Positions 990 through 48,691 of a DNA stretch of 64,000 bases are shown piece after piece (within the stretch, counting starts at the first letter, position 1; each line of letters opens with the position of its first letter). Below the pieces are notes generated by a model that saw only the letters and a program-made list of their open reading frames with translations, searched no databases and was not told where the DNA came from. Origin of the DNA: Bacteroidota bacterium (GTDB lineage Bacteria > Bacteroidota > Bacteroidia > 2-12-FULL-35-15); NCBI GenBank assembly GCA_025963725.1, contig JAOQAE010000007.1, positions 186,001 through 250,000 of the forward strand, given 5' to 3'. Made by a program: the position numbers and the translations under genes.

Positions 990-1916
990 TTATTTGATCT
1001 TCGCCTGGCTTTGCTTTTCAGGTGTTTTGTGAAACCTGATGCCGATCATGAGCTCATGTGTTCCAGTGCTGTATTTCTTAATGTTGGTCATTGTAAAATC
1101 ATACGAGTAGGCAAAGGTGATGTTCTCCTGCATCGTGAATCCGATCATTGCCGAAACCGCATCGAGGTAGCGGAACGCGCCTCCGATCCATACCTTGTCC
1201 TTGTAAATGGCACGCAGGCCAAGGTCGAACTGCACAGGCGCCGGCTGCACATATTTAACGCAGGCCGATGGCTCCAGCTTGAAGTTGGCGCCAAGATCGA
1301 ACTTGTAGCCTGCCGTTGCATAATAGTGTGTTGCCAGCCTGCTTAAGCCGGTGTATGAATAATCGTAGAACTTGATCCTGTTCTGCAGGATCTGCGGAAC
1401 GCTTGCACCCACATACCATTTTTTATCGGTGGAATAAACATAAATGCCCGCGCCGAAATCCGGCGTGATCATCTGCTCCACGCCTCCGCTGATCACATTA
1501 TCGTGCGGATCGTGCAGGGTGATCTTGGAGCCATCCACCATGAACTGCAGCAAGCCGGCCGAGATCCCAAGGGAAACCCTCACCTTCTCCGCCACTTTTA
1601 AATGATAGGCATAAGAAAGATAAAATCCCGTTCTTCTTGTAGGCCCTACAATGTCTGTAAACAATAAGCCTCCCAGCCCCATCTTCCGGTTCTTCGTAGG
1701 CCCGTTCACACTCAGCATATACGTGCGCGGCGCATCCGTGATCCCGATCCACTGGTAGCGGTTGTTCGACATGCCCTCGTAATACGGGTTGCTGCCGCCT
1801 ACTGCCGGGTTCATCGGGTAATCGTTGAGCATGTAATTGCTGTAATGCGGCAGCTGTTGTGCATTTAGCTGCACTGTTGCCGCAACAAGTATGAACAGGA
1901 AGAATATTTTTTTCAC
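990..1916 (-). CDS. PorP/SprF family T9SS outer-membrane protein
   Basis: 308 residues. A signal peptide (MKKIFFLFILVAATVQLNAQ) is followed by the PorP/SprF hallmark start QQLPHYSNYMLNDYPMNPA, then by the family core with RYQWIGITDAPRTYMLS and a barrel pattern to the C-terminus. Its length is normal for the family. In Flavobacterium, SprF is needed to deliver the adhesin SprB to the surface, and each giant T9SS adhesin tends to have its own SprF-like partner. This gene follows the 2863-residue SprB-repeat gene by 78 bp on the same strand, so it is probably that protein's dedicated partner. The outer-membrane location and the pairing are inferred from family and context. A perfect palindrome sits in the gap between the two genes. 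Confidence 0.92.
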   Translation of the reverse strand: MKKIFFLFILVAATVQLNAQQLPHYSNYMLNDYPMNPAVGGSNPYYEGMSNNRYQWIGITDAPRTYMLSVNGPTKNRKMGLGGLLFTDIVGPTRRTGFYLSYAYHLKVAEKVRVSLGISAGLLQFMVDGSKITLHDPHDNVISGGVEQMITPDFGAGIYVYSTDKKWYVGASVPQILQNRIKFYDYSYTGLSRLATHYYATAGYKFDLGANFKLEPSACVKYVQPAPVQFDLGLRAIYKDKVWIGGAFRYLDAVSAMIGFTMQENITFAYSYDFTMTNIKKYSTGTHELMIGIRFHKTPEKQSQAKIK

Positions 1917-1994: not shown

Positions 1995-4900
1995 CTATCT
2001 GAGGATCGTGATCGGGCCGGTGTATGCATCCGGGAACAACGGATCTTTCAGGTCTATGATATAATAGTACGATCCCACAGGCAATTCTTTTCCTTTGTAT
2101 GTTCCTTTCCAGTGTTCCTTGTAGCCTACAGACTGAAACAGCAATTCGCCCCAGCGGTTGTACACCTCAACAACACAGTTCGGGAACAGCTCTATTCCAT
2201 CAATGAGCCATTCATCGTTATCGCCATCGCCGTTTGGTGAAATACCATCAGGGATCACAATTGCAGGCAATACCGTAACGGTTACCGAATCGCTCACCGA
2301 GCAGCCCTGCGGCGTGGTTACCGTAACCGTATAAGTAGTGGTTGCAGTTGGTGTTGCCGTAGGATTAGAGCTTGTTGCATTGTCGAGGTTCGGGATCGGG
2401 CTCCAGGAAAGGGTGGTTCCCGATGAGCCGGTCGGACTGCCACCCAGCACCGTGCTTGTGCCTATCACGATGGTTACATCGCTTCCGGCATTAGCTGAAG
2501 GCAACACATTTGATGTAACAGTGATCGTATCGCTTGCCGTACATCCGCTGCCGTTATCGGCCACCACATAATAGCTGGTTGTGCCTGTTGGCGGAGTTAC
2601 CGATACTGTTGCAGTGTTTCCGACCACAGTGTTCGCAGGCATTTCAAACCATTGGAAGCTTATGCCGGTCGGACTGCTTGCCGAGAGCATGATCGAACCG
2701 TTCTGGCAGAACGTGGTATCATTTCCTGCAGAAACAAGAATGCTCTGGTTCGGAACAAGAACGCTTGTATCGGCTATCGTACAGCCATTGCCATCCGTCA
2801 CATCTATAATGAACATTCCACCGCTAAGCCCTGTAAGGTCTTCCGTGGTTGCCGTTGAGCCAACGCTCCACTGGTAGGTATAGGTGGATGTTCCGCCTGT
2901 TACGGTTACATCGATGGCCCCGTCGCTCAGCGTATTACAGCTTGGGTTGGTAACAGCGCTGCTGATCGTTAACGCCGTTGTTTGGATCAGCGTTGTGGAT
3001 TGCGTTGCGGTACAGCCCTGTGCATCGGTAACAGTTACAGTATAAGTATTCGCAGCAAGGCCGGAAGCCATTGCAGCATTTCCGCCCGAAGGCGACCATG
3101 CGTATGTATAGCCAAGCGTTCCGCCCGAAGGGATCACGGCGATGGAGCCTGTTGTATCGCCGTTACACAACGGATCTACCGAAGTTGCCAGGCTGAAGCC
3201 GATCGAATCAGGCTGTGTGATCGTTGTCATTGCAACGGAAACACATCCGTTGGCACCTGTCACCACCACCGCATAGCTGCCTTCGCAAAGCGCTGTTGCT
3301 GTTGGAGTGATTTGCGAGCCGAGGTCGTTCCAGGAATAAGAGTAAGGAGCAGCGCCGCTCAGTACCGTTACTGTTGCCGTTCCGTTGCACATCGCATTAC
3401 AGCTCACGTTGGTTGATGAGATGCTGAGTGACGGGCCGTTCTGGCTGTTCACCGGGATCACCGCATTTATAGAGCATCCTGCTCCATCGGTGATCAGCAC
3501 AGAGTATAATCCTGCGCTTAATCCTGAGATGGCAGGAGTTACAGGGCCGGTACTCCAGAGATAGGTATATGTTCCTGTGCCGCCTGTCGGCGAAAGCGTG
3601 ATCGCTCCGTCGCTTGCTCCGCAGGTTGCCGCAGTCACTACCTGGTTCGTTACGATCGGCGCAGGCTCGGTGATGGTCACCGAATCCACGATCGAGCATC
3701 CGCTTGCATCGGCTACCTGCACGAAATACACTCCTGCATCCAGGCCGCTCAGTGTCGGGCTTGTTGCTCCGCTTGCGATCCACAGATAAGAATAAGGGGC
3801 TGTTCCGCCGGAAGGCGTTATACCCGTTACAGCACCATTGCCGGCGCCATTACATGCAATGTTCGTTGAAGTGATCGCAAGGCTGGATGGACCGCTTGTA
3901 TTGCTTACAGGAATGCTGAAGCTGGACACGCAGCCGGAGTTATCCGTAATGTTCACCGTGTATAACCCTGCTCCCAATCCTGTTGCATTCGCTGTTGTCT
4001 GGCCGTTGCTCCACAGGTAAGTGTATGGCGCTGTTCCGCCTGTTGGCGCTGCTGTTGCCGACCCGTCGAACACGCCGCAGGTGGCATTGGTAACAGTTGC
4101 ATTTGCCGCTACGGCAGGTGAAGCGGTAACAGTTGTGCTTGCTGTTGTGAAGCATCCGTTCGCATCGGTGATGGTTGCCGTATAAACGCCTGCTGCGAGT
4201 GAGCTTGCAGTATCGTTTGTTTGTCCGGCAGGGTCATCCCACTGAATGGTGAATGGAGCGGTGCCCGAAGAAATGGTGAGGTACGCCATTCCTGTATTTG
4301 CATTGGAGCAGGTAATGTTTGAAGATGCCGCTGTTATCGTTAATGGTGTCGACTGGCTCACAACAAACGAATCCAGCTTTGTACAGCCGTTGTTATCGGT
4401 GATGGTTACCGTGTAGGTTCCCGGGCATAAGCCGGAGATCGTCGGTGTTCCCTGTCCTGTGATCGGGCCCGGCGACGGTGCTGCCCACACGTACGAATAG
4501 CCCGGTGTTCCGCCGCTTGCAGCGAGCGAGATCACACCGTTGCAAACATTGCTGCAGATCGCGCTGGTAACAGTTGCGTTGGATTGGATCGGCGCCGGCT
4601 CATTGATCGTTACCGGGCTGAAATGGATACATACATTGGAATCGGTGATCGCTACAAAATAGTTTCCTGCGCAGAGGTTGATCGCGGTATCATTTGCAGT
4701 CGGAGGCGTGTTATTCCAAAGATACGTAAACGGAGGAGTTCCGCCGATCGGCACCACCGAGCCTGACCCGTTGCAGAATGTATTACAGGTGGCATCAATT
4801 GTTGAAACCGTTTCACCTGTTACACCGCCGGAGTTGTTCATGGCAAGCGTGAAGGTGGAATCACAGCCGTTCACATCCGTTACGGTAACATCGTACAAGC

Positions 4901-7900
4901 CGGCACATACCGAAGTCGCATTCGGCGTTCCCTGTCCGGCAGTCGGCGCAGGAGCCCAGAAATAAGTATAGCCCGGGGTTCCTGTCAGCGGGTTTACAGT
5001 CATCGTTCCGTCGCATACACCGCAGTTGGCAGGCGTGCTGGAAACGGCGATATCGATCGGCGCAGGATTAATCACGGTAACATTTTGCGTAACGGTGCAG
5101 TTATTGGCATCGGTAACAATTACCGTGTACACATTCGGGCAAAGGTTGGTAACCGTTTGTGTGGTCGCCCCTCCGGCCGACCAGGAATAGGTGTATCCGG
5201 CAGTTCCTCCCGCAGGAGTTGCAGTCACCGATCCGTTGCAGCTATTGGTACAGGTCGGGCTCGTGCTTGTTGGGTTCGCGCTCAGCACCGGCGGATCGAT
5301 CAGCGTAAAGTTCTGGGTATTTGAACATCCGAGCGAATCGGTTACCATCAGTGTAAAGGCGCCTGCGCAAAGGTTGCTTACCGCGGTTGTCCCGTTGCCG
5401 GTGATCACACCCGGGCCCCAGCTGTATGCATACGGTGCTGTACCGCCGGTTGGCGCTGCCAACGCAGTTCCGTTGCAGGCATTGTTACAGGTTGCATTGG
5501 TGAAGGTCACATTCGGAATGATCGCCGGAGGCTCCGTGATCACGATCGGCAATGGCGAGGAAGTACATCCGTTGAGATCGCTTACCGTTACATTGTATGT
5601 TCCTGCGCAAAGCGCGGAAGCTGTATCGTTATTCGGCAGGCCGGCCAGCGACCATGCAAAGCTGTATCCCGGTGTGCCGCCCAATGGGGTCACCACAGCA
5701 ACTCCATCGCAGGTACCGTTGCAGCTTGCATTGGTATGCGATGTTGTGGTGCTTAAAGGAGGCGGCTCGGTGATCACTATTGTATCCATCGCGGTACAGC
5801 CGTTGGCATCGGTAACAGTAAGCGAATACTGCATCGGGCAAAGGTTTACAAGGTTCGGCAATGGGAAGGTCGGACCAAGCGGCGGATTCGGCAGCCAGCT
5901 GTATGTATATGTCCCCGCACCTGTACCGCCTGTAGCGGTAGCGGTAGCTGTTCCGTTGCAGGCTGCATTACAGAGCACATTGGTAGTTGCAACAGATACC
6001 GTAAGTGTAGGAGGCGCTGTGATATTGATGGTAAGCGTAGTATCACATCCGTTTGCATCGGTTACAATATAGGTATATGAACCGGCGCATAAATTTGTTT
6101 GCGAGGCGCCTGAAGGCGCACCGTTAAACAGGTAGGTGTAGCCGCCTGCACCGCCTGCAGGGCTTAGTGTGATAGAGCCGTTGCAGGTTCCGCCGCAGCT
6201 TTCATTTACAATTACCGGGTTCGGTGAAATCAGAACAGGGTTAAAGATGGTTGCCGTGTCGATCGTGATACAGCCTGCCGCATCCGTCACTGTTACCGAA
6301 TAGGTTACCGGGCCGCAAAGTGCGGTGATCGCAGGAGTTCCATCCCCTGCCGCGTTTGGCGACCAGTCGTACGTATATCCGGGCGCGCCTCCGCTGGCAA
6401 CAACCGTTGCTGTTCCATCGCAGGCATTGTTACAGGATACATTGGTATGCGACATTACAAGCGTTGGCCCGTTAATGTTGCTGATGAGGTAATTGAAATT
6501 ATACGCACAGCCTGCAGCATCTGTAATGGCTAACGTGTAAGCACCCGGCAATAAAGCGGATGCTGTTGCCGTTCCCTGCCCCACAATTAACCCGGGGCTC
6601 CACAGGAAAGTATAAGCGCCGGTTCCGCCGGTTGGTGCAACAGTGATCGTTCCATCAGCCAGCAGGCAGTTCGCGTTTGAGATGGTGGGGTTATCAATTA
6701 CAGGAGGCGGCTCTGTGATGATCACCGAAACTGTATCCGTACACCCTTTCGCGTCAGTAACTGTTAATGTATAAGTTCCGGCACACAGGCCTGTTGCAGT
6801 TGCAGTTGTTTGCACAGGTGATGTGCTCCAGGAATAAGAGTATGCACCCGTTCCGCCTGTTGCTGTTGCTGTCGCTGTTCCGTCGCAGGTAGCGCCGCAG
6901 CTTGCATTGGCATGTGTTGCAGTTACATTCAGGATCGGCGGGTTGGTAAAGGTTACGGTATCGGTATTCAGGCAGCCGTTGGCATCAACCACAGTTACCG
7001 TGTAGGAGCCTGCACATAAGTTGGTAACGGTTTGCGTAATACCCGCAGTACCTGCGCTATCTACCCACAGGAAAGTATATGGAACCTGTCCGCCGGCCGC
7101 ATTCGCTGTCGCGATCCCATCGCAGGCACCGAAGCAGCTTAGTGTTGTGTTTGATGTGGTGATAGTTATTGTGATAGTTTGCGCAATTGTTACGGAGCTT
7201 GATGCCACGCATCCGTGTGCATCGGTTACGGTTACGGTGTAGGTAACGTTCGGACAAAGCCCTACCGCGGTTGGCGTGGTTTGCGCTCCGGCATCGCTCC
7301 AGACATAGGAATACGGAGGAGTGCCGCCCGACGCAGTAACAGTGGCCGTTCCGTTACACACGTTACAGCTCGATGTGGATCCGGTGATAGGGGCGGTAAG
7401 CGGCGAAGGCTGTGTAAGCACCACCGACATGTTCGAGGTACAGCTGTTTGCATCTGTAGTGATCAGTGAGTAGGTGCCTGCACATAAATTCGTAATTGTT
7501 GGTGTGCCGTCGCCGACAGGGTTAAGCGGCAGCCAGTTATAGCTGTAAGGAGGTGTCCCGCCTGCAGCTGCAGAGGTTAAAGATCCGTCACAAACGCCGG
7601 AGCAGCTGATAGGAACAGCTAAGCTCGGGTTGCTGAACAGCTGCGGAGGCGAAGTGATCGTTACCGTGCCTGTGGCTGTACAGTTATTGGCATCCTTTAC
7701 AGTTACAGTATACACACCGGCACATAAGCCGGAAACAGAGGATGTTGTTGCTCCGCCCGGCGACCATGAATAAGTGTAGCCCGGAGTTCCGCCGCCTGCA
7801 ATTACAGAGGCTGTTCCGTTACACATTCCAAAACAGTTCACGTTGGTGGAGCTGGTTACCACTGTAAGCGGTGTTGGCTGTGTAACTGTGATGCTCACCA

Positions 7901-10586
7901 CTTTCACACAGTTATTGGCATCCGTTACGGTGAGTGTATAAACACCTGCGCACTGGTTGGTGATGGATGAGGTTGTTTGTCCGCCCGGCGCCCACGAAAA
8001 GGTATATGGCGGAGTTCCCCCGGAAATGGTGGATGTGATCGTTGAGTTGCAGTCGCCGTTGCATAAAAGCGCAGTTGCGCTTAATGTGGCATTGAGGATG
8101 TTCGGCTGGGTGATATTTACCGTTTGCGTTTTTGTACAGTTATTCGCATCGGTAACGGTTACGCTGTAAAGGCCGGGACATAACCCTGATATGCTTTGGG
8201 TATTCGCCGTAAAGCCTGCAGGGCCTGTCCATGCATAAGTATAGCCCGGGGTTCCGCCGGCCGGATTTGCCGTTGCGGTTCCATTGCAGGCGCCGTTACA
8301 CAGTACATTCGTTTTGGTGATGCTCACAGTCAAAGCCGGAGGCTGCGTTATGGTAACACACTCCATGGTATCGCAGCCGCGGGCATCCGTTACTGTAATG
8401 CAATAATTCCCTGCCCCTAATCCTGTAATGTTCGGGGTGCCATCCCCCGTTGGATTTCCCGGAGTCCAGTTATAAGTGTATGGCATTGTTCCGCCTGTAG
8501 GCGCTGCTGATGCTGTTCCGTTCAGATCGGCAAAGCAAAGCACATTGGTGCTTGTAGGGTTTGGAATAAGCAATGCAGGCTGTGTGATCGTTACGGCCGC
8601 TGTATCGCTGCAGCCGTTGAGATCACCCACCGTTACCGTATACGAGCCTGCGCAAAGGCCGGTAACATTAGGTGTTCCGTCGCCGGCCGGACTTCCGTTC
8701 CAGTTATAATTGTATGGGATCGTACCGCCGCTGACAACAGCCGTGGCAGTACCATCACATACGTTGAAGCAGGAAGTGCTGACGCCGGTGGCCGAAGCTA
8801 CGAGAACTGCCGGCTCGGTGATCAGCACGGAGTCGAGTTTTGTACAGCCGTTTGCATCGGTGATCGTAACCGTGATCATTCCTGCGCAAAGCGAGCTTAC
8901 CGTATTGGTGGTGGAATTGGTATTGGTAACAGATCCGTTGGACCAGGCATAGATGTACGGCGGCGTTCCGCCCGATACGGTTGCCGTAGCGGTCCCGTTA
9001 CAAACACCTCCGCAGGTTGCATTGGTATGGGAAAGCGTAAGCGTAAGAACCGGAGGCTGTGTAATGGTGGTGTCGAATGTTGCGGTACAGCCGTTTGTAT
9101 CGGTTACGGTAACTGTGTAATTGCCGGGGCACAGGTTGGTGATGGTTGGCGTGCCCTGCCCGGTGAATACATTCACGCTCGCCCAAACGTAGGTATAGCC
9201 CGGGGTTCCGCCGGAAGGGCTCACTGTCGCAGAGCCGTTGCAGAAGCCGTTACAGCTAACCATATTGGCATTTCCCGGGGCCACCAGCAGGCTTGGCTGC
9301 GTGATCACTACAATCGCAGAGCTGTCGCGGCATCCTCTCGAATCCGTTACGGTTGCCGTATAGCTTCCCGCACAAACGTTGACCGCCGTATCGTTATTGC
9401 CGAGCCCGCCCGACCAAGTATAGGAATACGGAGGCGTTCCTCCCGTTTCATCCACATCGATAAAGCCGTTGCAAACACCAAAGCAGGTTGGTTTTGTTGA
9501 AAGCGCTTCAAAATCATTCAGCGGTGGCGGCTCACCTACAGAAATAGAGCAGAAATGCACAACGGTTACCCCGCCTATGATCTCGGTAACTTTTACAGTA
9601 TTTGTACTGGCGCTGAGGCCCGTAATGTTAGCTGTACCATCTCCCGTAGGAGTAGCTGCGAAATTCCAGTCGAATACGGGTGCGCCCGAGCCGCCTGTAA
9701 CAACAACATGCGCAGCCCCGTCGGAAAACGAGTTACAGGTTACGCTATCCGCTGTAAGCGTAATGGTAAATTGAGGAAATACGCAGGTAACGGAGTTCTG
9801 GGCCTGAGTGGTTACGCCAACGCCTCCATATCTCATTCCGCCCGACCTGAAGCTGGTGGATGAAGAATCAGGGATCATCAGCATGGAATTATCTGCATTC
9901 AGTGTTAAGTTGGAAGAGCTCCCGAAATCCCATGCTTTCCTTACAGTTACCTGTGAAGTGCCGAGGTCGAGCGAGCGCGGCTGTGAAGAGTTCCCGATGA
10001 AGGAGCCGCAGACAACGAGCTTGTTATTGGTGTTCAATGAGCCTTTGAGCAGTGTTATGCTTACATCAGGGGCCGTTGAAAGCTCATCGCCGAGCGTCCA
10101 GGCGCCGGTCCCGTTAAATGTCCAGTTGCCGTATATGGTAACTCCTGCGGTTGAAATGATATTGACTGCAGAAGAAGAAGTAAATTCGGTCAGGCCTTTA
10201 AAGCCATTGGTAAGCAAGGGAGACAGCGTATATGAGCCTGTAACGCTGAGCTTTTTGCTGGTCACACCTGCAAAGATGGCCTTCTCGTCGATCCCCGCCC
10301 AGCTTATGCTTTTGCAAAAGCCGTTCGCAGTAAGCATTACCCGCTGCTCTTCAGCTGAAAATGAATGCTGGTCAAAGAAAACATCGTCGTTTACCGTTGG
10401 AACCGAAGCACCGCCAGTACCGCCGCTGGCCGCCGACCAATGCGCCGCCTCATTCCAGGAGCCTGTGCCACCCACCCAGTAACGGTTGGCAGCGTTCAGG
10501 CCAAGGTTAAATAAAAGCAGCAGGCTTAATGTGACAAGTAAATTTTTTTTCAAAACTATCGTGTGTTTAGGAGTGATTTGGCCCAT
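1995..10586 (-). CDS. Giant SprB-repeat adhesin with type B T9SS sorting domain (2863 aa)
   Basis: The largest minus-strand gene. It has a signal peptide (about residues 1-33), then an N-terminal module beginning NRYWVGGTGSWNEAAHWS (about 33-270) seen in other Bacteroidota surface proteins. About 30 SprB-type repeats follow (about 275-2600), each around 75 residues with cores such as CNGTATAT...GGTPPYxYxW and ending TVTDANGC. Two Ig/PKD-like modules come next, then a gliding-motility-type C-terminal domain (about 2775-2863: SPNGDGDNDEW, VYNRWGELLFQS, and a final strand ending PITILR). The last domain marks T9SS export and surface attachment. Most repeats carry four cysteines rather than two, unlike the adhesin at 37567. 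SprB-type proteins are mobile surface adhesins in gliding bacteria; gliding here is only a possibility. The ATG at 10586 is plausible, and a TTG ten codons or so later would also leave a signal peptide. Confidence 0.92.
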   Translation of the reverse strand: MGQITPKHTIVLKKNLLVTLSLLLLFNLGLNAANRYWVGGTGSWNEAAHWSAASGGTGGASVPTVNDDVFFDQHSFSAEEQRVMLTANGFCKSISWAGIDEKAIFAGVTSKKLSVTGSYTLSPLLTNGFKGLTEFTSSSAVNIISTAGVTIYGNWTFNGTGAWTLGDELSTAPDVSITLLKGSLNTNNKLVVCGSFIGNSSQPRSLDLGTSQVTVRKAWDFGSSSNLTLNADNSMLMIPDSSSTSFRSGGMRYGGVGVTTQAQNSVTCVFPQFTITLTADSVTCNSFSDGAAHVVVTGGSGAPVFDWNFAATPTGDGTANITGLSASTNTVKVTEIIGGVTVVHFCSISVGEPPPLNDFEALSTKPTCFGVCNGFIDVDETGGTPPYSYTWSGGLGNNDTAVNVCAGSYTATVTDSRGCRDSSAIVVITQPSLLVAPGNANMVSCNGFCNGSATVSPSGGTPGYTYVWASVNVFTGQGTPTITNLCPGNYTVTVTDTNGCTATFDTTITQPPVLTLTLSHTNATCGGVCNGTATATVSGGTPPYIYAWSNGSVTNTNSTTNTVSSLCAGMITVTITDANGCTKLDSVLITEPAVLVASATGVSTSCFNVCDGTATAVVSGGTIPYNYNWNGSPAGDGTPNVTGLCAGSYTVTVGDLNGCSDTAAVTITQPALLIPNPTSTNVLCFADLNGTASAAPTGGTMPYTYNWTPGNPTGDGTPNITGLGAGNYCITVTDARGCDTMECVTITQPPALTVSITKTNVLCNGACNGTATANPAGGTPGYTYAWTGPAGFTANTQSISGLCPGLYSVTVTDANNCTKTQTVNITQPNILNATLSATALLCNGDCNSTITSTISGGTPPYTFSWAPGGQTTSSITNQCAGVYTLTVTDANNCVKVVSITVTQPTPLTVVTSSTNVNCFGMCNGTASVIAGGGTPGYTYSWSPGGATTSSVSGLCAGVYTVTVKDANNCTATGTVTITSPPQLFSNPSLAVPISCSGVCDGSLTSAAAGGTPPYSYNWLPLNPVGDGTPTITNLCAGTYSLITTDANSCTSNMSVVLTQPSPLTAPITGSTSSCNVCNGTATVTASGGTPPYSYVWSDAGAQTTPTAVGLCPNVTYTVTVTDAHGCVASSSVTIAQTITITITTSNTTLSCFGACDGIATANAAGGQVPYTFLWVDSAGTAGITQTVTNLCAGSYTVTVVDANGCLNTDTVTFTNPPILNVTATHANASCGATCDGTATATATGGTGAYSYSWSTSPVQTTATATGLCAGTYTLTVTDAKGCTDTVSVIITEPPPVIDNPTISNANCLLADGTITVAPTGGTGAYTFLWSPGLIVGQGTATASALLPGAYTLAITDAAGCAYNFNYLISNINGPTLVMSHTNVSCNNACDGTATVVASGGAPGYTYDWSPNAAGDGTPAITALCGPVTYSVTVTDAAGCITIDTATIFNPVLISPNPVIVNESCGGTCNGSITLSPAGGAGGYTYLFNGAPSGASQTNLCAGSYTYIVTDANGCDTTLTINITAPPTLTVSVATTNVLCNAACNGTATATATGGTGAGTYTYSWLPNPPLGPTFPLPNLVNLCPMQYSLTVTDANGCTAMDTIVITEPPPLSTTTSHTNASCNGTCDGVAVVTPLGGTPGYSFAWSLAGLPNNDTASALCAGTYNVTVSDLNGCTSSPLPIVITEPPAIIPNVTFTNATCNNACNGTALAAPTGGTAPYAYSWGPGVITGNGTTAVSNLCAGAFTLMVTDSLGCSNTQNFTLIDPPVLSANPTSTSPTCTNSCNGSVTATPAGGTAGYTYSWSAGGATTQTVTNLCPNVYTVIVTDANNCTVTQNVTVINPAPIDIAVSSTPANCGVCDGTMTVNPLTGTPGYTYFWAPAPTAGQGTPNATSVCAGLYDVTVTDVNGCDSTFTLAMNNSGGVTGETVSTIDATCNTFCNGSGSVVPIGGTPPFTYLWNNTPPTANDTAINLCAGNYFVAITDSNVCIHFSPVTINEPAPIQSNATVTSAICSNVCNGVISLAASGGTPGYSYVWAAPSPGPITGQGTPTISGLCPGTYTVTITDNNGCTKLDSFVVSQSTPLTITAASSNITCSNANTGMAYLTISSGTAPFTIQWDDPAGQTNDTASSLAAGVYTATITDANGCFTTASTTVTASPAVAANATVTNATCGVFDGSATAAPTGGTAPYTYLWSNGQTTANATGLGAGLYTVNITDNSGCVSSFSIPVSNTSGPSSLAITSTNIACNGAGNGAVTGITPSGGTAPYSYLWIASGATSPTLSGLDAGVYFVQVADASGCSIVDSVTITEPAPIVTNQVVTAATCGASDGAITLSPTGGTGTYTYLWSTGPVTPAISGLSAGLYSVLITDGAGCSINAVIPVNSQNGPSLSISSTNVSCNAMCNGTATVTVLSGAAPYSYSWNDLGSQITPTATALCEGSYAVVVTGANGCVSVAMTTITQPDSIGFSLATSVDPLCNGDTTGSIAVIPSGGTLGYTYAWSPSGGNAAMASGLAANTYTVTVTDAQGCTATQSTTLIQTTALTISSAVTNPSCNTLSDGAIDVTVTGGTSTYTYQWSVGSTATTEDLTGLSGGMFIIDVTDGNGCTIADTSVLVPNQSILVSAGNDTTFCQNGSIMLSASSPTGISFQWFEMPANTVVGNTATVSVTPPTGTTSYYVVADNGSGCTASDTITVTSNVLPSANAGSDVTIVIGTSTVLGGSPTGSSGTTLSWSPIPNLDNATSSNPTATPTATTTYTVTVTTPQGCSVSDSVTVTVLPAIVIPDGISPNGDGDNDEWLIDGIELFPNCVVEVYNRWGELLFQSVGYKEHWKGTYKGKELPVGSYYYIIDLKDPLFPDAYTGPITILR

Positions 10587-37566: not shown

Positions 37567-40500
37567 ATGCGAATAAAGCTACTTTTCACCTTTCTTTCTT
37601 TATTATTTGTTCTCGGTTCACAGGCGCAGTGCGGTCCAACTGTTCCCACATTCAATGTGAATCTTACGGGATCGCCTTCCGGTACCTGGACCAGTCCGCT
37701 TGTTCAACGGGCCGGTAACTGTTGCGGTACTACAGCACCCGATAAATGTGTGGATTTTATCATTACCCTTGATCCGGGTGCAGCGGGGATCAGCTTCAAT
37801 ATTATTTCAGGCGCGGTTCCGGGAGGAGCCCTTTTTTACCAGATCGGCTGCGGGCCTCCTACAGCGCTTGGCTCACCGATCTGCCTGAGCGGACCCGGCC
37901 CTCACCTCTTAACTTTTTGCAAGCCAGGAAATAATCAGAATGTTTACCAGATCACATCTATACCTGCAGCTGTGGGAGGCACAGATGTAACGGTGAATGA
38001 TGGTTGTGTCGGGCATATTGTTGCTACCGGCTTCAACACCTCCACCGTAACCTGGAATTCGATCTATCCCGGCGCACCGGGAGCATACAACAGTTATTTG
38101 TCCTGCACTTCCAATTGTCTCAATCCTACCGTTACAGGCACCGGCAGTCCACCGCCTTATGTTGATTACGTGATCTGCGGACAGCCCGCTTCCATGTGTA
38201 ATTTCACAACTGTATGTGACACAGTAAGGGTAACGTTTAATCCTACACTCAGCGTAAGCATTGCACCACTCAATCCAACGATTTGCTTCGGGCAAACCTC
38301 AACCACCATTACAGCAACGGGAGCAGGAGGCACTCCGCCCTATAGCTATTTGTGGAACAGCGTAAACCCTTCGCCAAGCATTAATGTGGGAGCCGGCAAT
38401 TACACAGTGGTAATGTCGGATGCTTCCGGCTGTCCGCCTGTTTCGGCTGCCGTAACTGTCACGTCCTTCTCTGTTGCCATTACAGCCAATGCCGGCCCCG
38501 ATGATACCACTTGTTCCCAAAGCCCTGCAACAATTTTGCATGGAGCCGTTACAGGCGCCAGCGGAGGCGTGTGGTCAGGCGGCGCGGGAACCTTCAGTCC
38601 GAACAATGCCACACTCGGAGCTGTGTATACTCCTACCGCGGCCGAAATAGCAGCCGGGTTTGTGAACCTCACGCTTACAACAACCGGTAACGGAACTTGT
38701 CCCGCCGCCTCAGATGTTGTGAAGATCTGGTTTATGGGCTTTACGGGAACTGTAGCCGTTGCGCCGGTAAATGTCAGCTGCTTCGGAGGAAACAATGGCT
38801 CTGCCACAGCCTCGGTTACCGGGGGCATTCCGCCATTCACCTATTCCTGGAATACAGTACCCGCACAAACAACAGCTACTGCAAGCAATCTGGTTGCCGG
38901 AACCTATACAGTTACGATCACCAACGGGATCGGCTGTACAACCCAGACCACCACAACCATTACGCAGCCGACGCCTTTAACAGTAAGCAACACTATCACC
39001 AATGTGAGCTGCGCAGGAGGAAACAATGGAAGCATTGCAGTTACACCGGCAGGCGGAACTCCCGGTTACTCTTATGCATGGCTGCCGGGCGGCCAGAGCA
39101 CCTCTTCCATCAGCGGACAGGCCGCAGGAACTTATACTGCTACCGTTACCGATTCGAAAGGCTGTGTGGTCACCTCCACATATACCATCACACAGCCGGC
39201 GCCGCTTGCCATTTCCTTTACATCAACTAACGTGAGCTGCTTTAACGGAAGCAATGGCACGGCATCCGCCACTGTTATCGGCGGAACACCGGCCTATACT
39301 TACAGCTGGGCACCTTCAGGAGGAACAGCCGCTACCGCTTCGGGATTACAGGCAGGAACTTATACTCTTACTGTTACGGATGTTAAAGGTTGCGTTCTTA
39401 CAAATACGATAACGATCACACAGCCGACTGCGCTTACTGCAACTACATCAGCAGCGCCTGAAACATGTGATTACCTGAACAATGGTTCTGCAACTGCAAG
39501 TCCGGCAGGCGGAACACCCGGCTACACTTATTTGTGGATGCCCGGAAGCTTTACAACAGCTACCGCCAGCAATCTTTCAGCAGGCACTTATACCGTAACA
39601 GTTACCGATTCGAAAGGATGTACAGCCACTGCTTTTGCTACCATTACACAACCTGCACCTTTAACTGTGAGCCTGATCAGCCAAACCAATGTGAGCTGCT
39701 TCGGGGGCAACAACGGATCTGTAACGGCCAGCCCTGCAGGCGGAACAGCTCCGTACGGCTATGCATGGTCGCCCGGCGGCGCAACAACAGCCACAGCTTC
39801 GGGCCTCGCAGCAGGTACATATACAGTTACTGTTACCGATAATCATGGCTGCCAGGTACAAAGTTCAACTGCAATTACACAACCTCTGCAGCCTTTAACG
39901 GCGACGAATGTTATCAGCAATGTAAGCTGTTCGGGAGGAAGCAACGGAAGCATCGCAGTGACCCCTTCAGGCGGAACTCCGGGCTACACTTACCTTTGGG
40001 CGCCGGGCGGACAAACAAGCTCTTCCATTACCGGGCAGGTCGCAGGAACCTACACGGTTACTGTAACAGATTCAAAGGGTTGTGTTTTCACCGCGAATTA
40101 TACCATCACGCAACCGGCACCTCTTGCCATTACATTTACGCAAACAAATGTAAGCTGCTCCGGAGGCAACAACGGAACAGCAACTGCTGCTGTGAGCGGA
40201 GGGACTCCGGCGTACACGTACAGCTGGGCGCCATCGGGCGGGACAGCCGCTACAGCCTCCGGCTTGCAGGCCGGCACCTATACCTTAACTGTAACAGATA
40301 CTAAAGGATGTACCGTTACCAATACGGTAACGATCACACAGCCAACTGCGCTTAGCGCAACCACCTCTGTAACCAATGAGACCTGCGATTACCTGAACAA
40401 TGGTACCGCTACAGCAAGCCCTTCGGGCGGAACACCGGGATACAGCTATTTATGGATGCCGGGAAGCTTTACCACCGGCACGATCAGCAACCTTTCCAGC

Positions 40501-43500
40501 GGAACCTATACTGTTACCGTGACCGATTCGAAAGGATGCGTAGCGCTTGCTACTGCTGTGATCACGCAGCCGGCGCCGCTTTCAATAACCTTCAGCGCAC
40601 AAACGAATGTAAGCTGTTTTGGCGGCAATAACGGATCTGTAAGCGCTACTCCTGCGGGCGGAACACCGAATTACTCTTATTCCTGGCTGCCGGGCGGAGC
40701 TACAACGAATTCTATTTCAGGCCTGGCTGCAGGAACATATATCCTCACAATCACTGATAACAACAGCTGCCAGGTGCAGAGCACAGTAAGCATAACACAG
40801 CCGGCGCTTGCACTCAGCGTTTCGGGGACATCCACAATTGTATCCTGCTTTGGCGGGAACAATGGGACAGCAACAGCCAATGGCACAGGCGGCACAAGCC
40901 CTTATGCATTTACATGGATGCCGGGAAGCGTGAGCGGGCAAAATATTACAGGCCTCGTTGCAGGAACATATACAGTAACCGCAACGGACGCTAACGGATG
41001 TACCGCAACGAACACAGTTGTTGTAAACCAACCTGCTCCCCTCGCCATCAGCTTCACACAAACCAATGTAAGCTGCTTCAGCGGAAGCAACGGAACGGCA
41101 ACCGCAAATGTAACCGGCGGTACAGCTCCTTATGCCTACAGCTGGACACCGGCCGGAGGAACAGGCTCAACTGCCACCGGACTGGCAGCCGGCACGTACA
41201 CCGCAACCGTTACGGATTCGAAGGGCTGTATTACCTCAAATACGGTAACGATCACACAACCGACCGCGCTTACTGCGACAACAACTGTTACCAATGAAAC
41301 CTGTGATTACCTGAACAACGGCACTGCCACGGCACTGCCTGCCGGCGGAACCCCGGGCTACACTTACCTGTGGATGCCTGGAAGCTTCACCAGCGCTACT
41401 ATAAGCAATCTTTCCAGCGGCACCTACACTGTAACCGTAACCGATCTCAAGGGATGCGTTGTGCTTGCAACCGCGAATATTACTCAGCCTGCGGCACTTG
41501 CAATTTCATTCAACGCACAAACGAATGTAAGCTGCTTCGGAGGCAACAATGGCTCCGTGAATGCCACCCCATCCGGCGGAACTCCTAATTACAGCTATGC
41601 ATGGGCCCCGGGAGGAGCAAGCACCAATTCAATTTCCGGGCTTTCGGCCGGAACATATACACTAACCATTACCGACAACAATAGCTGCCAGGTACAAAAC
41701 ACCGTCACCATCACACAGCCTGCCACCGCGCTTTCTGTAACAGCAACATCCACTCCTGCCACCTGTAACGGCGGAAGCAACGGAACAGCCACCGCGACCG
41801 GAGCCGGGGGAACAGGGCCATACACCTATTCATGGATGCCGGGAAGCCTGAGCGGACAGAATGTTACCGGCCTTACTGCGGGAACATATACCGTTATGCC
41901 GATGGACGCGAATGGCTGTACAGCTACGAATACCGTTACAGTTTCAGAGCCATCGGCGATGGTGCTTACCATGAATGCCACGAATTCAAACTGCGGTACC
42001 CCAAGCGGGCAGGCCTCAGTATCTGTTTCAGGCGGGATCGCGCCGTATACTTATTTATGGTCGCCTTCAGGAGGCACAGCCAGCACAGCAACAGGATTGA
42101 TCGCGGGAGCATATACGATCCAGGTGACTGATGCGAATGGCTGTATCCAGACACAATGGGTAAATGTGAATGATAACTCAGGCCCTACCGCCACGATCTT
42201 CTCCATCATCAATGTAAGCTGCAACGGCGGATCCGACGGAGCTGCGAGCGTTGGAGTTGCCGGAGGAACAGGCCCTTTCACTTATAACTGGATGCCTTTC
42301 GGCGGAACTTCACCAACGGCTACGGGCTTATCAGCCGGATCTTATACAGTAACTGTGCTGGATGCAAACGGCTGCCAGTCGAATGCCACTACCAGCCCCG
42401 ATATCCTCGAGCCGACACCGATCGCGATCAGCATTACCACAGGAGCCGTAAGCTGCTTTGGCGGCAGCAACGGAACCGCAACAGCTTCAGCAAGCGGGGG
42501 CACCCCGGGATACAGCTACCTGTGGCTCCCTTCCGGAGCTACCGGCCCTACTGTCTCCGGCCTGACCGCAGGAACATTCACCGTGCAGGTAACCGATAAT
42601 AATAATTGTGTTCAAACCGCGACTTATACAATTACCCAGCCCGCAGCTGCATTAACTGTTGGCATTTCAAACACACCTGTTTCCTGCTTTAGCGGCTCAA
42701 ATGGAAGCGCAACGTCCATTGCAGCAGGCGGCACAGGTCCTTACAATTACTCCTGGATGCCGGGAGCGGTTACAGGGCCTTCCATCTCCGGGATGCCTGC
42801 GGGCACTTACACCGTTTCGGTGACCGATACAAAAGGATGTACGGCTACAGCAAGCACTACTATCACTCAGCCTACCGCCCTTTCCCTCACGACCGGAAGT
42901 GCCAATGCTGCCTGCGGCACTCCAAGCGGACTGGCGTATGTTACCTCCACAGGGGGCACATCGCCATACGCGTATTCCTGGATGCCCGGCGGAACCATAA
43001 ACGATACAGCTTTTGCGCTGGTACCTGGAACCTACAGTGTAACCGTTACCGATAATAACAGCTGCGCGGCTTCTGCAAGCGTAACGGTAAATAATACACC
43101 GGGGCCTGTAGCTACGATCACCTCTACCGTAAACGTGAGCTGTAATGGCGGATCAAATGGCAGCGCGACAGTAGCCGTGGTTTTCGGCGTTACTCCATAT
43201 ACATACAGCTGGTCGCCTGCGGGCGGCAGCGGCGCCACGGCCTCGGGGCTTAACGCCGGAACGTATATTGTTAATGTGGCAGATGCAAACGGATGCTCTT
43301 CAGCAGATACTGCTGTTATTACGCAACCAACACCTCTTTCCGTAAGCGTAACAACAGCTAATGTAAGCTGTTTCGGAGGAAGCAACGGAACCGCCAGCGC
43401 AACGGCATCGGGCGGAACTCCCGGATATACCTACACATGGCTGCCTTCAGGCAGCACAGGTTCTTCCATAAGCGCGTTGGCTTCAGGCACCTATACCGTG

Positions 43501-46500
43501 CAGGCCACCGATACAAAAGGCTGTGTTACAACTGCTACCTTTACGATCACCCAGCCATCGGCTGCCCTGGCTGTGAGCACTTCCAACACGCCTGTTTCCT
43601 GCTCCAGCGGCTCAAATGGAACAGCCACGGCAGTTGCCTCCGGCGGAACAGCACCTTACAATTATTCCTGGATGCCGGGAAGCATTACAGGGCCATCGGC
43701 ATCTGCACTGACCGCAGGGACCTACACAGTTTCCGTAAGCGATGCAAAAGGCTGCAGCACCACCGGCACAACCACCATTACCCAACCTACAGCCATAGCG
43801 CTCACTACCGGCAGCAACAATGCGGCCTGCGGAACAGCAAGCGGTTTGGCATACGTAGGATCCACAGGCGGAACTTCACCTTATGCCTATTTATGGTCGC
43901 CGGGCGGATCGGTGAATGATACCGCATTCGGCCTGGTACCGGGAGTATACAGCGTTACCGTTACCGATAATAACAGCTGTGCCGCTACTATCAGCGTATC
44001 TGTGAATAATACTCCGGGGCCTGTGGTAACGATCACATCTACTACAAACGTAAGCTGTAACGGAGGATCGAATGGCAGCTCCACTGCAACGGTAGCAGGC
44101 GGCATACTGCCTTATACGTTCAGCTGGTCGCCTTCGGGAAGCACTACGGCAAATGCTACGGGGCTTTCAGCAGGAACACACATTATAAATGTTACCGATG
44201 CAAACGGATGTCCTTCCGCGGATACCACTATCGTTACACAGCCTACTCCCGTGGCCGTTAATGCGGTCACCACCGATGTGAGCTGCTCCGGCGGCACAAA
44301 CGGCACAGCCACTGCAACAGGCTTCGGCGGAACACCGGGATATACATTTACATGGCTGCCATCGGGAAGCACAGACAGCACCATCAATACGCTCGCAGCA
44401 GGAACATATACAGTACAGGCAACGGATGCCAACTCCTGCAGCGCTACTTCTACCTTCTCTATTACGCAACCGGGAGTGCTTACGGCTTCTGTTTCATCTT
44501 CTTCCAATGTGAGCTGTTTCGGCGGAACGAATGGAGCAGCTACGGTGAGCATTACAGGCGGCACGCCATTCTACAGCTATAACTGGCTGCCTTACGGAGG
44601 AACCTCAGCAAGCGCAACCGGACTTTCTGCAGGAACGTTTACAGTGAACATTACAGACTCGAAAGGTTGCAGCACTTCCATCACGGTAACGATCACGCAG
44701 CCGGCGCAGGCGCTTTCCGCTACCGGAACGGGATCTGTGACCAGCTGTTTTGCAGGTGCCGACGGAACGGGTACCGTTCTGCCTTCCGGCGGAACCTCAG
44801 GCTACACTTATTTATGGAGCCCTGCAGGCGGAACAGGCGCAAGTGCCAGCGGGCTGAATCCGGGAACCTATACAATTCTTATTACAGATGCCAACGGATG
44901 CCAGGCAAACACTTCGATCACAGTTACACAGCCACCGCAGATCGTAGCTACGCTCAGCGCTGTTAATCCTTCCTGTGGTTTCGCGAATGGTTCCATATCA
45001 TCGATGGTATCAGGCGGCACAGGCGCATACACCTATTCATGGTCGCCGGGAGGAGCAGTAACGCCGGGCATCGGCAGCCTGAGCCCGGGCAGCTACACCG
45101 TTACAGTTTCCGATGCGAACAGCTGTTCTGTTTCCGCCACTGCAACGCTTACGAACATTGCCGGGCCGAACGTTTTCATTGCTTCCCAAAGCAACGTTTC
45201 CTGCTTCGGAGGAAATAACGGCAGCGCCACAGCGGGTGTTTCGTCAGGTACATCACCTTACCTATACAGCTGGAGCCCTTCGGGAGGAAACGGAGTTACA
45301 GGAACCGCGCTTACTGCCGGAACTTATACGGTAACAGTGACCGATTCACTGGGCTGTATCAATACGGCCACAGCAACCATCACTGAGCCTCCGGCCTTAG
45401 GGATTTCCGTTTCTTCATTGTCAACGGTATCCTGCAACGGCCTGAGCGACGGCAGCATCACAGTTACAGGAACCGGCGGAACCCCTTCCTACTCGTATGC
45501 CTGGTCGCCTGTTTCTTCAACACTGCCGACAGTAACAGGACTTGCCGCAGGAAGCTACACTGTGAATGTAACCGATCAGAACAGCTGCTCTACTTCCATT
45601 TCAATTTCAATGACACAGCCGGCCACGTTAAGCTCTTCCATCGGCAGCAGCACCAATGTAACGTGCTACAGCGGAACGAACGGAACAGCAGCTACCACTG
45701 TGAGCGGAGGAACACTTCCTTATTCATACCTGTGGTCTGACGGACAAACCGGAAGCATCGCAACCAACCTGGCTGCCTCCTCCTATACGGTTACGGTTAC
45801 GGATGTGAACGGCTGCTCATCCACAGCAACAACGGTGATCACACAACCGACACAGGTGATCACGTCTGCCGGCGCTAACGACACGATCTGTTTAGGATCA
45901 TCCGGGGCGGTTACAGCTACGGCTTCGGGTGGAGCAGGAAATTATTATTATGTATGGCAGCCGGGGCCTGCGATCAATTCGGGAACCTATAATGTTATCC
46001 CTGTCGCCAACACAACATATACCGTAGTTGCCTACGATGAAGACGGCTGCGCGGGAACACCGGATGAAGTGGATGCCATTGTGTATACCCTTAGCGGCGC
46101 GAACATTGAGGCCATCGGCAATACCCCGATCTGTCCCGGACAAAGCTCCACCATTTATGTTCAAACCACTGGCGATACCGGGCCGCTTAGCTATTCATGG
46201 AGCAATGGCCTGGGTAATGGGCCGGGCGCTTATGTTGTGATCCCGACCAGCCCGATCACGTACGTGGTTACAGTGAGCAACTCCTGCGGCGCTTCTGTGA
46301 TGGATACAGTTGACATTACCTTCAATCCTCCTCCGACGCTCGCATTGTCTTCCGATACCAATTCCATCTGTGCACCGGGAAGCGTTCTTTTCAATGCCAA
46401 TGCAGTAACCGGAAATCCTTCCGATCCTATTGTTTCATGGATCTGGAATTTTGGTGACGGCGGCACATCCACACTCGAGGATCCGTCACACACGTATCCT

Positions 46501-47142: not shown

Positions 47143-48691
47143 AAAGAATATAGTTCTGCTTCTGATAGGATTCTTTGTGCAGCAATCGTTTGCACAGATC
47201 ACTTCCATGCGCGATAAGCAGTTATGGCTAAAGGCCGATCAAACGCTGGAATATGGCGATTATCCCGGCGCGCTCCAGATGTATGAAAAGCTGTATGCGC
47301 TCGACAGCTCCAACCAGGAGCTTAATTATAAAATGGGCGTGTGTAATTTCCAGATCAGGAAATACAGGATGAACTCGAAAAGATATTTTGACAAGGTGAC
47401 TCCTTCTGATTTCCCTGAAACATGGTATTACCTGGGCCGCCTGCATCACCTGCTGAGAAATAACCAGCTCTCGATCGAGAACTATACAGCATACAAGAAC
47501 AGCAAAGCGGCGGATAAGGAACACAGCACGCGTGAAGTGGATCAGCTCATCGAGAAATGCCATACGGCTATGCTGTTTGAGGCGCAGATGAATACAAACA
47601 TACAGATCGAGAACCTTGGCAATACGATCAATACCGAGTTCGCGGAATATGCACCGCTGATCCCGGTGCAGGAGGATTTCATCATTTTTACTTCACGAAG
47701 AAAAAATGAGGTGCATCAGCAAAAGGATCCGACCGATCAGTATTTTGAAGACATCTATGTTTCCACCAGGTTCGGAGATACCTGGCAATACCCGGTGATG
47801 CTGGACACATCGATCAACACACCCCTGCACGATGCCTGCACCGGCCTGTCGACCGACGGCGAGAAGCTGCTCATTTACCGCACCAGCAAAGACCTGACAA
47901 GCGGCGACATCTACGAAAGCACCCTTGAGATGGGAAAGTTCAGCACGCCTGTGCTGCTGCAAACCAGGGTGAACTCGGAAGATTACATTGAAACGAGCGC
48001 ATGCTACTCACCGGATAATAAGACGATCTTTTTTTCAAGCAACCGCCCGGGAGGCTACGGAGGAAAAGACCTTTACATGATGAAACAGCTCCCGAACGGC
48101 AAATGGGGAACTCCATTTAACCTCGGGCCGGGCATCAATACGGAATACAATGAAGATGCGCCCTTTGTTCATCCTTCCGGCTCGGTATTGTTCTTCAGCT
48201 CCCAGGGGCATAAGAATATGGGAGGCTATGATATTTTTAAAGCCAATTTTGATGAGTCGGGGAATTTTACCACTCCTACCAACCTGGGATACCCGATCAA
48301 TACACGCGATGACGATGTGTTCTTTGTGTTGAATGCCGATGCTACCACCGGTTATTTTTCTTCCGAGCGTGAAGGCGGATACGGATCGCAGGATCTTTAT
48401 AAGGTTGTGTTCTCGCCTGATCCCCTGCCTCTGAACGTATACAATGCACGCGTGCTGGATGAGAACAACAACGTGATCCGCCAGGCTGAGCTTACCATGG
48501 TGGACCTGTCGGCAAAAACAGTATATGGCATTTACAAATCAAACGACAAGGGAAAGATCATTATCATTTCGGAACCCAACAAGGAATACCAGGTCATCAT
48601 TAAGGCCGTTGGCTATGAGCCATTCGTTACAAATGTTATTTTAAGCTCTGACAATGATCTTTCATACAGACTAAAAAACCGGATTCAATGA
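47123..48691 (+). CDS. TPR/PD40 beta-propeller protein, PorE-like but lacking OmpA domain
   Basis: 522 residues. Signal peptide (ends QQSFAQ); TPR-type helices (about 35-130, with YGDYPGALQMYEKLYALDSS and TWYYLGRLHHLLRNNQLSIE); a PD40/WD40-like propeller (about 175-430, with FSSNRPGGYGGKDLYMMK, FSSQGHKNMGGYDIF and FSSEREGGYGSQDLY). A carboxypeptidase-regulatory-like beta domain (about 440-520) closes it. This is the architecture of T9SS PorE without its C-terminal OmpA-type peptidoglycan-binding domain; the normal C-terminus ends at RLKNRIQ. It overlaps the adhesin gene by 20 bp and the next PorP/SprF gene by 4 bp. Periplasmic accessory role for adhesin export or anchoring is inferred from neighbours. 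Confidence 0.88.
   Translation: MLRCLDKKNIVLLLIGFFVQQSFAQITSMRDKQLWLKADQTLEYGDYPGALQMYEKLYALDSSNQELNYKMGVCNFQIRKYRMNSKRYFDKVTPSDFPETWYYLGRLHHLLRNNQLSIENYTAYKNSKAADKEHSTREVDQLIEKCHTAMLFEAQMNTNIQIENLGNTINTEFAEYAPLIPVQEDFIIFTSRRKNEVHQQKDPTDQYFEDIYVSTRFGDTWQYPVMLDTSINTPLHDACTGLSTDGEKLLIYRTSKDLTSGDIYESTLEMGKFSTPVLLQTRVNSEDYIETSACYSPDNKTIFFSSNRPGGYGGKDLYMMKQLPNGKWGTPFNLGPGINTEYNEDAPFVHPSGSVLFFSSQGHKNMGGYDIFKANFDESGNFTTPTNLGYPINTRDDDVFFVLNADATTGYFSSEREGGYGSQDLYKVVFSPDPLPLNVYNARVLDENNNVIRQAELTMVDLSAKTVYGIYKSNDKGKIIIISEPNKEYQVIIKAVGYEPFVTNVILSSDNDLSYRLKNRIQ

Follow-up and report, generated by a model that had tools for sequence, protein, structure and literature searches.

The window analysed here is a stretch of 64,000 nucleotides from a Bacteroidota bacterium (GenBank assembly GCA_025963725.1, contig JAOQAE010000007.1, positions 186,001 to 250,000 of the forward strand), near the start of which an open reading frame on the minus strand encodes a giant SprB-repeat adhesin (adhesin A; 2863 amino acids, 111 of them cysteines). 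Adhesin A consists of 30 SprB repeats, an immunoglobulin (Ig)-like domain of the Ig_7 type, a PKD-like domain, and a CHU_C signal for the type IX secretion system (T9SS). The SprB profile (PF13573) matched it with 645 bits in 27 matched stretches (cut-off 28), and the C-terminal CHU_C domain (PF13585, E 3.5e-24) marks it as a type B T9SS substrate. In our repeat model the protein was split at a cysteine (Cys) that lies early in each repeat, giving 77 columns with this early Cys at column 5, two extra Cys at columns 9 and 43, and a late Cys at column 57; the split yielded 30 repeats, matching the approximate count of the initial annotation. The Pfam SprB model spans 37 of these ~77 residues, and its boundaries cut through the structural domain. 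We regard it as highly likely, judging from which Cys are lost together, that disulfides staple each domain to the next and that the extra pair pins the stapled loop. The features of adhesin A, from the N-terminus to the C-terminus, are as follows.

1995..10586, minus strand: adhesin A as a whole (open frame; Pfam SprB, Ig_7, and CHU_C)
9777..10586, minus strand: signal peptide and unique N-terminal domain, residues 1-270, with C91, C193, and C268 (from the sequence)
9525..9776, minus strand: repeat 1, with early Cys C284, the usual late Cys absent, C346 nearby, and no 9/43 pair
8577..9524, minus strand: repeats 2-5, four-Cys form (early, 9, 43, late)
8340..8576, minus strand: repeat 6, no 9/43 pair and another pair, C729/C743 (columns 48/62); most orthologues have 9/43
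6708..8339, minus strand: repeats 7-13, four-Cys form
6474..6707, minus strand: repeat 14, two-Cys form, likewise in all 14 orthologues
4350..6473, minus strand: repeats 15-23, four-Cys form
3441..4349, minus strand: repeats 24-27, two-Cys form here and four-Cys form in most orthologues (probable lineage-specific loss)
3207..3440, minus strand: repeat 28, four-Cys form
2748..3206, minus strand: repeats 29-30, two-Cys form, likewise in all 14 orthologues
2490..2747, minus strand: Ig_7-type domain with early Cys C2627 and late Cys C2682, which carries the junction chain on (Pfam, sequence)
2262..2489, minus strand: last PKD/Ig-like domain with late Cys C2762 and no early Cys, which fits the last link (Pfam, sequence)
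1998..2258, minus strand: CHU_C type IX secretion signal domain with a lone C2804 (Pfam)

Each SprB repeat would form an Ig-like domain of ~77 residues within a rod. AlphaFold2 models of three-repeat segments (window 8103-8810, minus strand, and 8807-9496, plus strand, of locus L021) reached a predicted local distance difference test score of 96 and predicted template modelling scores of 0.76-0.82, with six strands as in Ig domains (by Ig names, B 20-27 and E 48-52 in the first repeat, F 55-62, and G 68-75). The fold, a two-sheet sandwich with Ig strand order and B-E, F-G, and A'-G pairing, is further indicated by matches to Ig domains in the PDB and by covariation contacts. Contacts 20-53 and 21-54 connect BC with FG, and 9-43 and 11-42 connect AB with EF, which would put AB/EF and BC/FG at opposite poles of the fold, with Cys 5 in AB and Cys 57 in FG, as in Ig domains, where EF lies opposite FG and BC (reviewed in PMC12051499). 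By strand register, the extra Cys 9 (AB loop) and Cys 43 (EF turn) are predicted to face each other.

The presence of early and late Cys was coupled across domain junctions. Of 2288 neighbour junctions, 2245 had the early Cys of repeat k together with the late Cys of the following repeat (k+1) and 18 had neither; among the mixed junctions, 7 lacked the late Cys and 18 the early Cys (odds ratio 321, p 1e-29), whereas early and late Cys within one repeat showed no association (p 0.22). The joint absences came from 14 loci, and their number far exceeded a within-protein shuffle (mean 3.9, maximum 9, observed 18). The early Cys of k+1 was weakly associated with the late Cys of k (p 0.002), which alternating loss along some arrays could explain. 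A strict neighbour table (1311/2/2/1) was dropped because it removed most of the informative repeats; wider windows were used instead, and the exceptions were read by eye. Several of the junctions scored as lacking the early Cys have a replacement Cys in the linker that comes after it (L223, L193, L125, and L129), and among the 7 lacking the late Cys, L048 has a CxxC able to pair locally, while L145 and L153 permit no judgement. Covariation over two repeats linked linker column 68 of k with columns 21, 53, and 55 of k+1; direct AB-FG coupling did not rise above background in this analysis, leaving only an indirect route via column 68, and a high 5/57 score, produced artificially by constant columns, was disregarded. 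Since at a junction the AB/EF side of domain k (its C-terminal pole) would face the FG/BC side of domain k+1 (its N-terminal pole), a disulfide between the early Cys of k and the late Cys of k+1 could span the junction.

The ends of the arrays follow the same pattern. The late Cys is missing mainly from repeats that open an array, often directly after the signal peptide, or that follow a repeat without an early Cys, while the early Cys is missing mainly from closing repeats. In most cases, a repeat with a lone Cys ends an array or adjoins a repeat without the partner. First repeats near the protein start that retain the late Cys mostly have, as read by eye, a Cys 14-16 residues ahead of the early Cys, and this N-terminal Cys might serve as its partner. 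At the other end, 43 of 44 representative last domains before the sorting domain carry the late Cys and 31 have no free Cys in the AB loop, the exceptions mostly having a CxxC or a linker Cys close by. Adhesin A has 31 early Cys (repeats 1-30 and Ig_7) and 31 late Cys (repeats 2-30, Ig_7, and PKD). The initial annotation had held that all repeats except the first carry both; repeat 1 indeed has no late Cys in place, C346 sitting a few residues past the usual site, although its early Cys (C284) is present. The model accommodates 106 of the 111 Cys: the junctions take up 31 pairs, columns 9/43 another 21, and columns 48/62 one. This leaves C91, C193, C268, C346, and C2804. Among these, C268 and C346 fit the N-terminal cap pattern of other first repeats, and we propose them as partners. 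In the last repeats before the sorting domain at L197, L184, L263, L277, L270, and L033, the early site is a CxxC (columns 5 and 8), and several of these repeats also have Cys 50/60, possibly as a C-terminal cap.

Several observations weigh against junction stapling. The 18 junctions scored as lacking the early Cys include, when read by eye, many scoring errors (the early Cys is there) or masked residues, and four junctions (L099, L163, L195, and L229) break the rule without a visible substitute. Some extra Cys are unpaired, namely at column 49 in 40 repeats of the genus set, at columns 15 and 51, and at column 14 in repeat 1 of two orthologues. Enzymes that might form the bonds are sparse as well: by profile, DsbB was found in 0 of 36 genomes of the genus, VKOR in 2 of 36, and a DsbA-like thioredoxin fold in 7 of 36. 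Moreover, the junction bonds might join the early Cys of one chain to the late Cys (k+1) of a neighbouring chain in a bundle, and the nearest solved relative, GhpA of Aureispira, was deposited as repeat assemblies (56 chains in 8 entries). We consider such a bundle improbable, because an in-chain bond joins directly adjacent poles and needs no bundle, and there is no sign here of a multimeric adhesin A.

Even less probable is a bond that joins the early Cys to the late Cys within a repeat, with the extra pair as a second bond, which would give the one-disulfide and two-disulfide domain forms suggested by the initial annotation. In favour of such an arrangement, nearly all repeats have both Cys, and co-variation of the extra pair is real. 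Read from the sequences, however, the two Cys do not act as one repeat's disulfide, since they sit at opposite poles of the fold (covariation; PMC12051499), their absences are uncorrelated within the repeat and strongly correlated across the junction, and each array end is without exactly the half that has no neighbour.

The extra pair at columns 9/43 behaves as a unit in its own right. In adhesin A, 21 of the 30 repeats have both extra Cys, 9 have neither (repeats 1, 6, 14, 24-27, 29, and 30), and none has only one, and the full repeat alignment returned the very counts first reported. The probability of this split is 7e-8 with margins fixed, in a test that ignores kinship between repeats; because the repeats are related to each other, a comparison among orthologues is the stronger test. 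None of the nine has 9/43, yet repeat 6 is not devoid of an extra pair, having C729 ('NYC') and C743 ('MEC') at columns 48/62. Fourteen full-length orthologous proteins of the genus, adhesin A included, could be compared end to end (53-65% identity, 30 repeats in register). Of their 420 repeat positions, 344 had the full 9/43 pair, 74 had neither Cys, and 2 had just one. Of these two singles, one (L056, repeat 12) has a new Cys instead in the loop following the tryptophan, while the other (L101) lies within a stretch of unrelated inserted repeats having a 12/40 pair. On an orthologue tree built with all Cys-containing columns excluded, we counted ~16 whole-pair switches and no step to an unpaired single, omitting from the count the replaced repeats 4-7 of L101 and the relocation in L056. 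Shuffling one site among 13 species gave a mean of 36 single cells and a minimum of 25, compared to 1 observed. The orthologue at L101 (G023:C213:15501-28600) is unusual in its length of 4195 residues; near-identical repeats of a foreign type stand in place of repeats 4-7, and some members of this long replacement run carry the 12/40 Cys pair.

The co-occurrence of Cys 9 and Cys 43 is more than the duplication of repeats. Common descent alone, in which duplication and shuffling would have spread two repeat types whose sites have no functional tie, has in its favour that repeats do duplicate and that some proteins contain long runs of one type, but we find it scarcely credible: individual species gain or lose the pair at individual positions, in fixed register, while the rest of the repeat stays orthologous, a missing partner is usually offset by a nearby Cys (L056 repeat 12, L190, and L191), and other pairs elsewhere on the same ladders behave alike. 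The orthologues also bear on the proposal that the run of two-Cys repeats near the C-terminus marks a different zone. Repeats 24, 25, 26, and 27 have the pair in 12, 13, 10, and 12 of 14 orthologues, respectively, and only repeats 14, 29, and 30 are without it in all 14. We conclude that this run probably reflects mostly recent loss and no conserved zone.

Beyond the genus, the pair was traced through Bacteroidota. A DNA pattern scan of genome contigs that required only Cys 9 returned at least 117 stretches, and the titles among the matches listed were all Bacteroidota, Flavobacteriales, Saprospiraceae, Chitinophaga, Hymenobacter, Spirosoma, and Bacteroidales among them. Outside the orthologous lineage, 290 of the 294 repeats selected by Cys 9 among the matches listed had the partner Cys 43; of the four partnerless ones, three were cut by a contig end and one had a Cys just past the test window. 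The reverse pattern, requiring only Cys 43, was present in 195 of 395 genomes of the class. Over both scans, the matches listed contained 1201 repeats with early and late Cys, of which 592 had both extra Cys, 4 only the first, and 2 only the second, and all six singles had another extra Cys nearby or were misaligned. At the genus level, 14 cases scored as 'only Cys 9' were set aside, as nearly all were Ig-like domains whose early Cys had been aligned to column 9. The joint loss that a disulfide between Cys 9 and Cys 43 predicts was thus borne out in adhesin A, its orthologues, and SprB-repeat proteins across Bacteroidota, and the strand register agrees with such a bond.

Further Cys pairs co-occur at other columns: 14/38 (17 together, 1 apart), 48/62 (16 and 0), 46/64 (11 and 1), and 50/60 (5 and 0), besides 12/40 in L101. 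The 14/38 cases in the genus set (5/5) come from one orthologous repeat and were counted as one event, to which the phylum set adds more. Column numbers sum to 52 for 9/43, 12/40, and 14/38 and to 110 for 46/64, 48/62, and 50/60, i.e., for six independently placed pairs, and these sums correspond to two predicted antiparallel strand pairs in fixed register. Covariation among 1280 repeats without extra Cys likewise gave the highest mean z at sums 52 and 110; an earlier run with Cys masked as gaps may carry Cys signal, and the analysis was rerun on two-Cys repeats only. In the structural model, the optional pairs would join strand B with E or strand F with G. The idea of only two repeat forms finds no support, since repeats show six or more alternative extra pairs, in some cases combined in one repeat. 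Metal binding by Cys clusters without disulfides (e.g., by CxxxC loops of neighbouring repeats) could draw on the spacing of Cys 5 and 9, three residues apart, and on CxxC motifs beside other Cys in a few last repeats, but is hardly to be entertained, given that ladder pairs distant from the loop (14/38, 46/64, 48/62, and 50/60) follow the same rule, that Cys are lost in twos and not fours, and that the proteins are extracellular.

Two further regularities of repeat type were observed. The lone column-49 Cys (YTCTITDANGC), for which there is no partner, stands where strand F otherwise has a core valine, possibly as a buried thiol; it occurs in runs of up to 9 adjacent two-Cys repeats and in more than 20 four-Cys repeats of one protein, at L022 (G000:C4:712001-732000, minus strand), L023 (G000:C3:18001-36000), L110, L116, L121, L122, and L133. 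L021, L024, L044, L054, and L055 share a fixed order of C-terminal repeat types (DDD, then 14/38, plain, then D), which is kept between species and paralogues.

Mechanistically, our model of domain-to-domain stapling would work as follows. Cys 9 and Cys 43 of one repeat would form an intradomain disulfide that is gained or lost as a unit, and a second disulfide, between the early Cys of k and the late Cys of k+1, would cross to the next domain. Both ends of such a chain would be capped, as the first repeat tends to be without the late Cys or to have an N-terminal Cys for it, and in the last domain there is usually no early Cys, or a CxxC or linker Cys lies next to it. Optional staples would be added on the B-E ladder (12/40 and 14/38) and the F-G hairpin (46/64, 48/62, and 50/60). 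Under load, the junction disulfides may take tension past the domain cores and stiffen the rod, with force that enters a domain at Cys 57 being handed on through sulfur to the AB loop of the domain before it, and the 9/43 staple may tie this junction-bonded AB loop to the EF turn and guard it against pull-out. An optional 9/43 staple fits its frequent loss, the junction bond being nearly universal. On balance, we lean towards the wider view that SprB-type adhesins throughout Bacteroidota are continuous disulfide ladders, capped at both ends, with optional staples at fixed rungs. In Bacteroidota gliding the load is borne by SprB-type adhesins, and if these are such ladders, pull would run via disulfides from the adhesin tip to the membrane anchor and bypass the domain cores. 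A rod stapled domain to domain would also have redox-dependent stiffness and redox-dependent resistance to unfolding and proteases, and the junction rule lets array ends and domain borders be read from sequence.

Adhesin A shares the repeat family (PF13573), the CHU_C signal, and a neighbouring PorP/SprF gene with SprB, the gliding adhesin of Flavobacterium johnsoniae. The best structural match was GhpA, the grappling-hook protein of Aureispira (PDB 9flp, 9flw, 9flu, and others; Foldseek E 2.8e-9), which aligned to the adhesin repeats with a VIA-align Z of 11.5 over 224 residues and a sequence match of E 2.6e-30. The aligned parts of GhpA have early-type Cys (TTIC and TPIC) and late-type Cys (AQGC and ANGC) in successive domains and no 9/43 pair in the aligned stretch shown, and the four-Cys form was not seen in any solved chain matching adhesin A repeats. 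The adhesin of Mobiluncus mulieris is likewise a giant tandem of Ig-like domains with covalent cross-links, including a disulfide between strands 2 and 5 (PMC10619420), but its cross-links (isopeptide, ester, thioester, and disulfide) lie within domains joined by a flexible linker, whereas the SprB bond is proposed across the junction. For the same adhesin class, force is passed via disulfides in the gliding and T9SS machinery (SprF-GldK and PorG-GldK), by which the SprB anchor of F. johnsoniae is tied to the motor track (PMC12635249); unlike these, the bonds proposed for adhesin A belong to the extracellular rod. In the open-access literature searched, we found no account of how the Cys of SprB repeats pair, and the subscription paper on the GhpA structure may already show the junction bond. 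That co-lost Cys pairs hint at disulfides is an established idea (PMC3548674); what is new here is where the co-lost pairs lie, not the principle.

A second giant SprB adhesin and candidate carrier genes for both adhesins lie in the same window.

990..1916, minus strand: PorP/SprF-family outer-membrane protein, the next gene on the same strand and likely carrier or anchor of adhesin A (PF11751, E 2.7e-78)
37567..47142, plus strand: adhesin B, a second giant SprB adhesin of 3191 amino acids with 87 Cys and the same layout as adhesin A
48688..49695, plus strand: PorP/SprF-family protein two genes on, likely carrier of adhesin B (PF11751, E 9e-64)

The SprB repeats of adhesin B have early and late Cys only, as noted initially, and its C-terminus obeys the same end rule, with a last domain lacking the early Cys. 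The PorP/SprF gene beside adhesin A is as expected for the dedicated carrier of a type B T9SS substrate. Two Cys, not spaced as a CxC motif, lie in the C-terminal tail of the adhesin B carrier (QMCKLNKKKKKRLLVPCPKF), and the tail of the adhesin A carrier has none. Because the CxC tail of F. johnsoniae SprF bonds to the moving track (PMC12635249), only adhesin B might be track-coupled. Directly upstream of adhesin B, positions 34452-37372 of the window encode another CHU_C protein and a PorP_SprF protein with a SPOR domain.

The proposed ladder would need an enzyme that oxidises up to ~55 disulfides per molecule in genomes where DsbB was not found and VKOR is rare. F. johnsoniae does form envelope disulfides (PMC12635249). 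VKOR was considered as the oxidant and set aside, as it is found in so few genomes and the copy in the adhesin's own genome (G000) is probably tied to peptide export. This copy, the only VKOR of that genome, belongs to a 549-residue protein (L284, G000:C1, 946-2595, plus strand) with a C39-peptidase-like start, a VKOR domain, and a thioredoxin-like end, and the probable link to peptide export comes from the adjoining grasp-type ligase-like gene. The same genome (4.8 Mb) contains at least a dozen and a half further SprB-repeat loci, several of them giant, and a cluster of giant SprB loci was also observed in G002 (C34:236000-304000).
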